This document shows, in pieces, positions 16,285 to 24,855 of a stretch of DNA of 64,000 bases (positions are counted from its first letter, which is position 1; every line of letters begins with the position of its first letter). Source of the stretch: Ptychodera flava (taxonomy: Eukaryota; Hemichordata; Enteropneusta; Ptychoderidae); NCBI RefSeq assembly GCF_041260155.1, contig NC_091932.1:42544125-42608124 (forward strand), in the 5' to 3' direction. The translations under genes were made by a program, and so were the position numbers. The notes beneath the pieces were generated by a model. That model had not been told where the DNA came from. It worked only from the letters and a program-made list of their open reading frames with translations, and made no database searches.

Positions 16285-16423
16285 TCATTGCGCATTTCGT
16301 GTATCGATCCTACAAGTACAGCACGTATCGATTCTTATTGAATCGGGCACATAATCTTGTTTCGAGTCCGACCAAACCAGAGCCGTGACCCATGACTGTT
16401 TTTCCATACACTGTGAAGGAAAC
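16285..16423 (-). CDS. Neurotrophin exon 6 (C-terminal knot half, stop)
   Basis: 139 bp after the acceptor TCTTTTTCCTCCAG. Its first base completes Thr204. It encodes FPSQC, SWVTALVW and IRIDTCCTC and ends in TGA. The translation is a clear match to the neurotrophin C-terminus. Confidence 0.93.
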
Positions 16424-22400: not shown

Positions 22401-24855
22401 ATTTAATTTCTTTTCCGGAATTTGGTTCTGTTTGTAAGACACAGTTTATGCCCCGTCTCAAAAATCACCACTGCTTGAAAACACACAGGAGTAGACATGA
22501 TTGTCTATGTAGGATGACCACATACAGAGGTTCCTTTTGTTTCAGATGGTTTGAAGAAGCGTTTTGAAATCTTTCTAAAACAATTTGGATTTCCATGACG
22601 TCACACAATACATGCGCAGATCCGCGGTGCACCCTACACATTGTCACATTACTTCGTATTCGCTTGCAAAATAAATAAAAAACAGTATTTTCATTTAATA
22701 TTCCACTATCAACCGTTGCTTAGGAATTTCAAGAAATGGGTATAACGTTTATCGTTTTCCCCATTTCATGAAATCGTACGTATTTTTGTTGTAACAATTT
22801 TAATGTTTACTTCTTTTTCATCATACAATTACGCCTTAAATATCCTGATATCTTGGAAATCTACATATTCATCGAATATATTATTAGATCTAAGAAATAA
22901 ACAATAAAAAAATAAAAAATAGTAAGTACTCGCTTCTACAGTCCTACGGCAGAAATCCAAGACAAACGTTTATTCCAAGAGCGCGGGACGTCTTCCCTGT
23001 CTTCGGTAAAATTTAAAATTGTTGTTTCGGTACTTCACATTGATATTCGCGGAATATTGAAACTATAACATATGTTTTATTTAATAGTCAGTTTTTTCAA
23101 AATGTGCATTCTTTCTTATAAATTTGTTCTCAATATGAAAGTAATCGACAAAATGCATCATGTTGTTTTAAACCTGATTAAAATCTCGTCCGAGATGCCC
23201 ATGATTATTCCGGTTGTGTTGAAATGCAGGAAACGTTCGCTAAGTAAACAAATAATCCAAAATCTGCTGAAAATCTCACGTTGTGACTATAGGAAGGAAA
23301 GTAATAAATGTACATGTAATTAGCGGTATTCTCCTGCATCGCCATTTGAAATTTTTCGTATATTAAGGAAGAAGAAACTATTTCATAGTTTCGACAATGC
23401 ACATGATCAATCGACAACCACAGCTGCATGATGGTCATGATATATTGGCCCGACTACCAAACACAGAGAAACTGTTTCATTGGGGTAAAATGTCTCTCTT
23501 ACATTTTGAATCAAACATTTACATAAGGGCCTAAAGAGGTTGTAAAAACGTATTTACTGGTTATATTGTCTTCTGCAGAAGACTCTGACTGTCATAATTC
23601 TGTTTGAACACACACTTCATTAAGCATGGTCGCTCTTTCTACTCCTAAATAAAGAGGTTTAGTACAGGCACGTCAATTGTACAACCAAACGTTTTATTTT
23701 TGAAGGCAGCAAAAATGTCGAACTACACAGAAAATCGAAATTTTACGAAATCGGGTACAAAACGGTAAAAATAGTGGATAATTTAGTTGAAGATTTCCGC
23801 GGATAATTTTGTTGATGAGGGATACTACCCTTGATTAGTTATGAGTCGCACATACTAGTATATCATTTGCAAGAAAATAGCGTTGTCATGTGGCCAATAT
23901 CCTGAAACTTTCAAAAAAAAAAGGCTCGGGAACATAAGTTTGTAGTTCAGTATGCATGCTTTGTTTTCAGAGATTTTGACCAGTTCATGACATATATGCA
24001 CGAGCGATAGCGAGAGCATAATGAACTGGTCAAAATCGAGTGGTATACTGTTGCTGGGTGTGATTTATTGCTAGTATATCATAACATTATATTGAAATTC
24101 TGGCATGGAACGTCAAAAACGGATTTTTACTCAAGCTGAGAGCTCGTGAGTATGCCAGCCGTGGTATATCGCCAATATACCACGGTTCTTTTCATGTACT
24201 CTCGACCAATCAGATCGCTGTATTTGGGACATCGATATACAGGTATGATATAATTTTCCTTGTTTCCAGAACTTTCCGCTAAGAAGAAGCGAGAATTTTA
24301 TTACTTGTAAACTCACCACTTCAAGCCTGGTATGTATCATTATATCATACCAGTATATTGACGGCACAAATACAGTGATCTGATTGGTTGAGACTTGAAA
24401 AAGAACCATGGTATATTGGCGATATACCACGGCTGGCGCACGCGCGAGCTCTCGGCTAGAACAAAAATGACGTTCCATGCCAGAATTTCAATATAATGTT
24501 ATGATATAATAGCTATAAATCACACCCGGCGACGGTATACCACGAGATTTTGACCAGTTCATTTCACTTATGCACGAGCGATAGTGAGTGCATATATGTC
24601 GTCTCTTCACTTTTACCACTTCTATAAGCAATTACAGAAAAATACAATACTTTCTATTTTGGATATCTTAACGATCGACTGTAACCTGCCTGTTTCCAGC
24701 ATGAAAATATATTAAGGTCGTGCCTGATATGACGGACAGTTCATTGGCGACGAATAAATGAAAAGTGTATTAGGTAATTAAAGTACCTTACCTATTTGTA
24801 AAGTCAGAATAACTGTACAGGAAGCCAGTAAAACGCAACTTCGCCAACAGTCCAT
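16285..24855 (-). CDS. Neurotrophin (NGF/BDNF family), six coding exons
   Basis: Secreted neurotrophic growth factor precursor; family members act as cystine-knot dimers on Trk and p75-type receptors. Six exons (24855-24792, 19798-19769, 19043-18954, 18634-18387, 18131-17953, 16423-16285) have canonical splice sites and compatible phases and give 249 residues, close to NGF and BDNF. Residues 1-21 are a hydrophobic signal peptide. A low-complexity propeptide with an NQS glycosylation site follows. HKR at 145-147 is the likely processing site, leaving a 102-residue mature chain. Family hallmarks in the mature chain are EVCNS, FHVTKC, SCSGIDST, SWVTALVW and SIRIDTCCTC, matching NGF SVCDS, FETKC, GCRGIDS, TFVKAL and RIDTACVC. 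The six knot cysteines are C155, C188, C198, C209, C239 and C241. C238 is extra. NRS at 172-174 could be glycosylated. Exon chaining is my inference; the family assignment is strong. Confidence 0.93.
16485..16734. mobile_element. MITE family B, TTAA-flanked
   Basis: TTAA precedes AGGGATACAGTAGTTGG, and the other end is the mirrored form followed by TTAA. About 250 bp, same family as 42705-42941. It lies in neurotrophin intron 5. The TTAA target and AGGG start suggest a Kolobok-like origin. Confidence 0.75.
16739..16862 (+). mobile_element. MITE family C, left fragment
   Basis: AAGGGCAAGTACCTGTAACTT and about 120 bp more match the left half of the full copy that starts at 16876. The right half is missing. 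Confidence 0.6.
16876..17160. mobile_element. MITE family C, complete TTAA-flanked copy
   Basis: TTAA (16872-16875), then AGGGCATGTACCTGTAACTT, ending AAAGTTACAGCTACTGGCCT followed by TTAA (17161-17164). 285 bp, no coding. Confidence 0.78.
17953..18131 (-). CDS. Neurotrophin exon 5 (processing site and N-terminal knot half)
   Basis: 179 bp between the acceptor TTTTGTTTTCCATTAG and the donor GTGAGT. Begins with codons for HKR, the probable cleavage site, then EVCNS, VRLKPG, FHVTKC and SCSGIDS. Ends after two bases of Thr204. Confidence 0.92.
18387..18634 (-). CDS. Neurotrophin exon 4 (propeptide)
   Basis: 248 bp between TCATCTGCACAG and the donor GTAGGT. Encodes an acidic, Ser-rich propeptide segment (DLTERVIKDM to SSEEFSM). 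Phase 1 in, phase 0 out, fitting the neighbouring exons. Confidence 0.85.
18826..18932 (+). repeat. (TACA)n/(GACA)n microsatellite
   Basis: Tandem TACA changing to GACA tetramers, in neurotrophin intron 3 next to the exon 3 donor. Confidence 0.97.
18954..19043 (-). CDS. Neurotrophin exon 3 (propeptide)
   Basis: 90 bp between CTTTTGTCAAAG and the donor GTAAGT. Phase 1 on both sides. Encodes VGFQNQSMSSTK to LKLVLN. Confidence 0.8.
19262..19592. mobile_element. MITE family E
   Basis: Left end TTAAGGTAGAATGCGCCTCGAAG and right end CTTCGAAACGTATACCACCTTAA (19570-19592) are imperfect inverted repeats. About 330 bp in neurotrophin intron 2. Another copy, with a nested insertion, lies at 63139-63660. 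Confidence 0.6.
19769..19798 (-). CDS. Neurotrophin exon 2 (30-bp microexon)
   Basis: Flanked by acceptor TTTTTATTTTTTAG and donor GTAAGT. Phase 1-1. Adds LVSTAPTEY to the start of the propeptide. Small, but the splice sites are textbook; skipping it keeps the frame, so it could be alternative. Confidence 0.72.
20095..20280 (+). mobile_element. MITE family C, diverged left part
   Basis: AAAGGGCCAGTAGCTGTAAATTTTG at the left and TCTGGTCCGGAC inside match the family C interior. The right end is lost or replaced by the foldback at 20281. Confidence 0.5.
20281..20698. mobile_element. Foldback with a family A end in the loop
   Basis: Arms of about 115 bp (AATCAAGAACGGTACAATG outermost) are reverse complements. 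The arms include the AGAGACAGTAGCTRTAA word of family C. A family A left end (AACACGATTGGAACTAATTT, from about 20439) lies in the loop. Confidence 0.7.
20938..21061 (+). repeat. (CT)n microsatellite
   Basis: About 60 CT dinucleotides with one CCCTCCCCCC interruption. Confidence 0.98.
21810..22016. mobile_element. MITE family A, complete copy
   Basis: ACACGATTGGATCTAATTTG at the left, AATTAGTTCCAATAGTGTT at the right, about 207 bp, in neurotrophin intron 1. Confidence 0.75.
23960..24605. mobile_element. Compound foldback element in neurotrophin intron 1
   Basis: A core (about 24037-24548) has arms sharing GTGGTATAC, TATTGAAATTCTGGCATGG and ATATACCACGG in mirrored order. It is bordered by copies of TTTGACCAGTTCAT and ATGCACGAGCGATAG; the left copy of TTTGACCAGTTCAT is itself palindromic. 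Non-coding. Confidence 0.7.
24792..24855 (-). CDS. Neurotrophin exon 1 (signal peptide)
   Basis: ATG at 24855-24853 opens 21 codons: a short polar start (MDCWRS) and a hydrophobic core (CVLLASCTVILTLQI), ending one base into codon 22 at donor GTAAGG. A TATA-like box lies about 50 bp upstream. The chosen ATG is the first in the frame after that box. Confidence 0.8.

Follow-up and report, generated by a model that had tools for sequence, protein, structure and literature searches.

A multi-exon gene of neurotrophin type in the acorn worm Ptychodera flava

Neurotrophins have been described from several invertebrate groups, including another acorn worm (PMC2772990, PMC2586362, PMC4812194), which tempers the premise of an earlier, sequence-only reading of this DNA that they are described from few. 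As set out by Wilson 2009 (PMC2772990), the vertebrate precursor is encoded in one coding exon, and ambulacrarians were proposed to keep a split-gene, Spaetzle-like neurotrophin alongside a compact canonical one. The traits given there for the non-canonical ambulacrarian group are a multi-exon precursor (Sp-NT2), an extra cysteine beside Cys V (Sp-NT2 and NTb) and an Asn at the position of the canonical Asp18 (Sp-NT2, NTa and NTb), the latter corresponding to mammalian Asp30. The same account describes the extra cysteine beside Cys V and a multi-exon precursor for insect Spaetzle, and for Dappu-NT of Daphnia pulex six coding exons that divide the propeptide as well as the knot.

Here we describe a gene from a 64-kb window of the Ptychodera flava genome (the whole stretch of DNA analysed) in which, compared by description, the multi-exon, extra-cysteine and Asn traits of Sp-NT2 (Strongylocentrotus) and of NTa and NTb (Saccoglossus) are all found.

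Gene structure and the public protein

Six exons on the minus strand span positions 24855 to 16285, as the sequence-only reading had proposed, and they are separated by five introns, all GT/AG, with phases 1, 1, 1, 0 and 2 in order. The joined coding sequence of 750 nt gives 249 residues and a stop, and the resulting protein is identical, letter for letter, to a public predicted Ptychodera flava protein at NCBI, P0001, titled 'uncharacterized protein'. Because of this exact identity and a Pfam NGF E-value of 3.2e-09, the six-exon chain is real, beyond chance; the public gene model may itself rest on the same sequence logic. The gene had been presented as hidden, and in this respect the earlier account has to give way to the unnamed prediction already in the database. 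It was right that no single open frame displays the gene: the longest stop-to-stop frame covering part of it, near exon 4, has 134 codons (frames of at least 85 scanned). Splice sites were scored by a simple count against the splice consensus; by this measure all five donors lie within the top 0.3-3.9% of the 3809 GT sites on the minus strand and four of the five acceptors within the top 0.1-1.8% of the 3490 AG sites, the acceptor of exon 3 being unremarkable (top 30%).

Coding exon 1 (24792..24855, minus strand, as are all features below unless noted) carries the start codon and the hydrophobic part of a likely signal peptide (M1-I21), the core of which, CVLLASCTVIL, has a Kyte-Doolittle mean of 2.69 over 11 residues, a judgement by hydropathy; it ends in a phase 1 donor. 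Inverted-repeat elements lie inside intron 1. Exon 2 (19769..19798), placed by its splice sites and readable in P0002, a second Ptychodera protein, in a one-residue variant, is 30 nt long with phase 1 at both ends, so that in-frame skipping is possible. Exon 3 (18954..19043), 90 nt and likewise phase 1 at both ends, is missing from P0002, and its 3' part is kept in a third protein, P0003 (14/17 residues). Exon 4 (18387..18634) holds the bulk of the propeptide, ends in phase 0 right before the cleavage site, and is identical in P0002 at 83/83 residues and in P0003 at 79/83. From the spliced coding sequence and the Pfam profile, exon 5 (17953..18131) contains the cleavage site and Cys I-III, with which the mature knot starts, and exon 6 (16285..16423) contains Cys IV, the extra cysteine, Cys V, Cys VI and the stop. 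A single intron, of phase 2 and following GIDST, thus interrupts the knot and separates Cys III from Cys IV. Dappu-NT, with which the gene shares six coding exons and the splitting of both propeptide and knot, differs in spreading its knot over four exons rather than two (PMC2772990), and the vertebrate precursor differs in having one coding exon against six. Rfam and ARAGORN gave no match in the window.

The mature domain and its processing site

The mature domain of P0001 comprises 102 residues with seven cysteines, those of the knot at 8, 41, 51, 62, 92 and 94 and an extra one at 91, which forms with Cys V a Cys-Cys doublet (precursor residues 238-239; 16318..16323). Nine residues separate Cys II from Cys III and one separates Cys V from Cys VI, both matching the aligned BDNF segment, and the Cys III-IV spacing is one residue below it. 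The NGF/BDNF cysteine spacing claimed earlier consequently holds in order and in these two intervals; its rendering of the C-terminal motif as IRIDT-C-x-C skips the additional cysteine of what is in fact IRIDTCCTC (DTCCTC in P0001, STCCVC in P0003). The Gln of GQKF, before Cys II, aligns with the Gln of the BDNF segment KQYF, and a conserved Gln at this place is described as making a structural hydrogen bond (PMC2772990). The Asn of the first hairpin is mature residue 22 and is the same in P0003, its equivalence to Asp18 being judged from the hairpin.

P0001 accordingly shares with vertebrate BDNF, NT-3 and NGF the Pfam NGF domain, the II-III and V-VI spacings, the Gln before Cys II and the IRIDT strand, and differs from them in its seven mature cysteines, its shorter Cys III-IV interval and its lack of both the signature motif and an R-x-K/R-R site. 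The signature motif, as quoted by Wilson (PMC2772990), occurs in none of the three Ptychodera proteins; SCSGIDSTFPSQC departs from it in three ways, being one residue shorter and having Phe for Tyr/Trp and Ser for Lys/Arg/Leu. Because the motif is given there as a consensus for vertebrates, we treat it as a mark of the vertebrate group and not of the whole family.

Vertebrate neurotrophins are processed at a furin-type site, R-x-K/R-R. The likely processing site here is His-Lys-Arg (18123..18131), read in the context SMHKR; the HKR of the sequence-only reading is present as a Lys-Arg site that departs from the furin-type form in having Met at P4. An AlphaFold model built from a three-row alignment has strands at 166-169, 174-177, 213-222 and 227-236 within the mature domain, and with a mean pLDDT of 43.0 and 30/249 residues at 70 or above it is too weak for use.

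Related copies and a zinc-finger leader

Across exons 4-6, P0002 differs from P0001 at one of 188 residues; it has a zinc-finger-gene leader in place of an exon 1 counterpart. Alternative splicing of the gene described here was considered as the origin of P0002 and rejected, for P0002 has SKR where P0001 has HKR and VVST where P0001 has LVST, and the first and third of its three zinc-finger segments are not identical to either copy in the window. The second segment is identical over 41 residues to one of these copies. The zinc-finger gene that lies upstream has, inside one of its coding exons, a splice-donor-like site, AGCA/GTGAGT (36892..36910, last exon base 36898, phase 1), which may serve as such; in P0002, exon 2 of the neurotrophin seems to be joined to the zinc-finger leader at a junction of this kind. 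P0003 begins inside exon 3, with no exon 1 counterpart, and is identical to P0001 at 95/103 residues of the propeptide and 62/102 of the mature domain, falling to 12/33 over the first 33 mature residues. All seven cysteines are kept in P0003 despite differences at 40/102 aligned mature positions.

A propeptide that stays nearly fixed while the mature ligand diversifies is the reverse of the usual pattern. One could speculate that these proteins stem from a local cluster of recent neurotrophin duplicates in which the propeptide is near fixed and the mature ligand, chiefly over its first 33 residues, diversifies under selection, a zinc-finger gene having taken up one copy as its tail to give a leaderless, intracellular neurotrophin domain. 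We regard this as unlikely on the present comparisons; if true, it would suggest co-evolving ligand-receptor pairs. Alternatively, the gene might be a decaying or unexpressed duplicate, still recognisable but unused and lying close to a repeat-rich zinc-finger array, as would fit two further copies that both lack an exon 1 counterpart and the inverted repeats of intron 1. The copy in the window is nevertheless intact, with 249 codons free of internal stop or frameshift, mostly good splice sites and a hydrophobic leader, and the retention of seven cysteines by so divergent a protein as P0003 also argues against decay, which we consider improbable.

Protein searches returned Ptychodera matches alone (3 of 350 candidates at E<=1; 2 of 9 and 1 of 4 at E<=10) and no Saccoglossus or sea urchin sequence. 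This lack of further relatives says little, because the searches at E<=10 missed known Ptychodera paralogues, one of them P0003 and the other P0001 and P0002. A plasmid search with the DNA of 16285-18700 and a phage search with the protein gave no match, and NCBIfam gave a single unrelated match, far under cut-off, for each of two proteins. A weak similarity on the plus strand at 5957-5998 (13-14 residues, E 0.12-3.7 against three proteins) is taken as chance.

Neurotrophin or Spaetzle, and what the gene may do

A profile comparison of the mature domain with NGF and other cystine-knot families had been put forward as a check on the neurotrophin identification; when run, it left NGF ahead and the identification standing. 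Against a cut-off of 27 bits, Pfam NGF scores 38.8 bits with the mature domain and 37.3 with the full-length protein, and Pfam Spaetzle scores 27.7 (over its cut-off, also 27) and 24.7 (under it), leads of 11.1 and 12.6 bits respectively. Spaetzle ranks second to NGF in all four sequences scanned with Pfam, and no cystine-knot family beyond these two is among the matches listed for the mature domain, Pfam's filters removing most matches with E above about 0.1. The best relative of known structure is BDNF (3.3e-07, phmmer); of the 24 matches listed, 18 are neurotrophins, all above the two Spaetzle entries, and the remaining four are three of Rho GEF 7 and one of SHANK1 (E 0.44-1.4). A profile built from the mature domains of P0001 and P0003 gives BDNF at 1.2e-09 and all 18 neurotrophins listed at 1.2e-05 or better, with Spaetzle at 0.081 and 0.11. 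Insect Spaetzle C-106 is thus a related cystine knot (E 0.043, phmmer) that scores under the neurotrophins in the Pfam scan, in the search of solved chains and with the P0001-P0003 profile, and the conclusion that the gene would encode a neurotrophin is supported.

Residue positions, in our own mapping of Wilson's numbering onto the aligned BDNF segment, are more mixed. Trp130 is reported in all neurotrophins except that of amphioxus (Tyr) and is absent from Spaetzle (PMC2772990); the position is Pro in P0001 and Trp in P0003. The Spaetzle residues Pro13, aromatic 133 and Pro136 are not found in P0001, which has Ile at 133, as in neurotrophins, Asp at 136 and, by ungapped count, a residue other than Pro at 13; Sp-NT2 does have Pro136 (PMC2772990), where P0003 has Ser. 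That the gene encodes not a neurotrophin but a deuterostome Toll ligand of Spaetzle type is a very unlikely reading: the above-cut-off Spaetzle score of the mature domain, the precomputed Spaetzle domain listed alongside NGF in P0003, the Pro at position 130 of P0001 and the Cys-Cys doublet and hairpin Asn reported as Spaetzle-like (PMC2772990) speak for it, and the NGF lead, the BDNF match, positions 13, 133 and 136, the Trp130 of P0003 and the statement in Wilson's account that no Spaetzle genes had by then been found in deuterostomes (PMC2772990) speak against it.

We give a probability of roughly 85% to the reading of the gene as protein-coding and as a neurotrophin of the non-canonical, multi-exon ambulacrarian type, like Sp-NT2 and NTa/NTb and unlike the one-exon canonical form, encoding a secreted, cleaved cystine-knot ligand; its placement in the ambulacrarian group would follow from the three reported traits. 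The product would be a secreted prepro-protein in which a signal peptide and some 120 residues of propeptide precede the 102-residue ligand, presumably released by cleavage after HKR. The usual neurotrophin knot is expected to take up six of the cysteines; the seventh, adjacent to Cys V, most likely makes an intersubunit disulfide by analogy with Spaetzle, giving a covalent dimer. Nearby cells would receive the signal of such a dimer, most likely via a Trk and/or p75-type receptor, with a probable role in neural development or maintenance.

Beyond the sequence-only reading, the analysis adds the extra cysteine, the hairpin Asn, two paralogues and the departures from the vertebrate motif and furin-type site. 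Wilson 2009 (PMC2772990) thought it of interest to examine how the Saccoglossus genes are organised, and we now have a full gene structure from a second acorn worm, with six coding exons and a single intron in the knot, between its third and fourth cysteines. With its paralogues the gene also forms a group of neurotrophin duplicates that are closely related, and it offers a concrete case for asking whether the extra cysteine gives covalent dimers.

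Gene structure and public counterpart

The neurotrophin gene runs along the minus strand in six exons, at 24855-24792 (exon 1, start phase 0), 19798-19769 (exon 2, phase 1), 19043-18954 (exon 3, phase 1), 18634-18387 (exon 4, phase 1), 18131-17953 (exon 5, phase 0) and 16423-16285 (exon 6, phase 2). Rebuilt from that strand, the spliced coding sequence of 750 nt yields 249 residues and a stop; every intron is GT/AG, with sizes from first to fifth of 4993, 725, 319, 255 and 1529 nt. The chain is identical at each residue to P0001, a public predicted protein of this enteropneust hemichordate, so the exon coordinates and 249-residue length proposed in the sequence-only reading are correct. 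This match is to a public prediction with the same exons, and says nothing of RNA. P0001 is named 'uncharacterized protein [Ptychodera flava]', with a precomputed Pfam NGF domain and a contig of 48,197,526 nt. The gene belongs to a known family; it has carried no name so far, and its prediction is already public.

In the open-licence literature no title dealt with this P. flava gene, which is not proof of its being unpublished, and the one neurotrophin paper of that kind to mention Ptychodera does so once, in a reference title. The paper on the chromosome-level genome of P. flava (PMC11175523) gave 0 matches for neurotroph, NGF or Trk in its main text. Text beyond titles was drawn from PMC2772990, PMC7535936, PMC2586362 and PMC4812194.

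Repeats are found both in the introns and elsewhere in the window. Intron 1 holds two inverted-repeat elements, perhaps miniature transposons, at 20280-20698 (arms of 117 nt, 95% complementary) and 24020-24563 (96 nt, 93%), and an interspersed repeat in intron 5, the last (16481-16738), has an inverted copy, 82% identical, at 42701-42945. BEL/Pao-type retrotransposon frames occupy 58-3505 on the plus strand (reverse transcriptase, Pao peptidase and integrase zinc-binding domains), a tandem array at 7437-8125 comprises about six units of 116 bp with 90% matches, and a similar 46-bp unit recurs in two arrays about 4.2 kb apart (5671-5808 and 10052-10144), oppositely oriented by eye.

Family and type of the predicted ligand

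The proposal that the gene encodes a neurotrophin is supported by profile comparison: the mature domain of P0001 scores 38.8 bits against Pfam NGF (cut-off 27 bits) versus 27.7 against Spaetzle, and the full-length protein 37.3 versus 24.7. A PDB sequence search with E up to 10 returned 24 matches, comprising 18 neurotrophins (3.3e-07 to 0.0026), two Spaetzle sequences (0.043 and 0.045) and four others (0.44-1.4). A two-sequence profile run against PDB sequences sharpens this separation: its 59 matches were 18 neurotrophins, with BDNF at 1.2e-09, two Spaetzle (0.081 and 0.11), two CFAP115 (0.091) and 37 pyruvate kinases (0.38-0.88).

The N-terminus carries a single strongly hydrophobic stretch, CVLLASCTVIL (mean 2.69), against a maximum of 1.26 past residue 30. 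The mature domain follows HKR at residue 147, and its seven cysteines are separated by 32, 9, 10, 28, 0 and 1 residues; the nine-residue Cys II-III gap and the CxC end agree with the aligned BDNF segment, and the extra cysteine immediately precedes Cys V. N-glycosylation sequons lie at positions 37 and 172. The product is most likely a secreted cystine-knot ligand, released by proteolysis. Two subunits are likely joined by a disulfide, since the seventh cysteine occupies the position of a Spaetzle cysteine that Wilson (2009, PMC2772990) linked to covalent dimers. By analogy with the family, signalling would proceed via Trk and/or p75, the latter reported for Saccoglossus in the same paper.

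That paper distinguishes two ambulacrarian neurotrophin groups, the canonical one-exon Sp-NT and a group made up of Sp-NT2 (Strongylocentrotus) with the acorn worm NTa and NTb. Of the traits reported for members of the second group, the P0001 gene has a multi-exon precursor, the extra cysteine beside Cys V and the Asn in the first hairpin; unlike Sp-NT2, it lacks Pro136 on our own mapping of Wilson's numbering, which we counted onto the BDNF segment and which her Figure 3 defines. On that mapping, and by the residue rule in PMC2772990, position 133 (Ile) and position 136 (Asp) are neurotrophin-like, but position 130 is Pro, contrary to the rule; P0003, a paralogue protein, has Trp there. None of the three proteins checked (P0001, P0003 and the second paralogue, P0002) matches the vertebrate signature motif.

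Paralogues and neighbouring zinc-finger genes

Both paralogue records give the same contig size as P0001, so P0002 and P0003 are probably on the same chromosome. P0002 (334 aa, 'isoform X2') is identical to P0001 at 83/83 residues of exon 4, 58/59 of exon 5 and 46/46 of exon 6. Over residues 1-137 it is similar to the opening exons of a C2H2 zinc-finger gene type found twice in the window, at about 35050-38975 (12 Pfam zf-C2H2 stretches) and about 43886-50265 (20 stretches); these duplicates lie on the minus strand, upstream of the neurotrophin gene and in its orientation. Compared at the protein level, the join in P0002 coincides with a donor-like site, AGCA|GTGAGT, inside an exon of both copies (36898 and 46462). 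After the zinc-finger part come exon 2 and then exon 4, with exon 3 skipped; each of exons 2 and 3 has phase 1 at either end, so that its loss preserves the frame. No comparable hydrophobic leader appeared in P0002 among windows starting in the first 60 residues (maximum 1.08).

P0003 (209 aa, labelled 'neurotrophin-3-like') scores 39.5 for NGF and 26.8 for Spaetzle in a Pfam scan, and both are among its precomputed domains. Against P0001 it is identical at 95/103 residues of propeptide and cleavage site versus 62/102 of the mature domain, a contrast with a Fisher p of 6.5e-08, for which residues are not independent and which omits 44 P0001 residues preceding the P0003 start and 4 excess P0003 mature residues. 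By stretch, 12 of the first 33 mature residues match, 22 of the next 27 and 28 of the last 42. Gene conversion of exons 3-4 could account for such uneven divergence, as could a relaxation of constraint or selection acting on the ligand. It is the gene's fit to the non-canonical ambulacrarian type, together with its close, unevenly diverged paralogues, that makes it worth attention.
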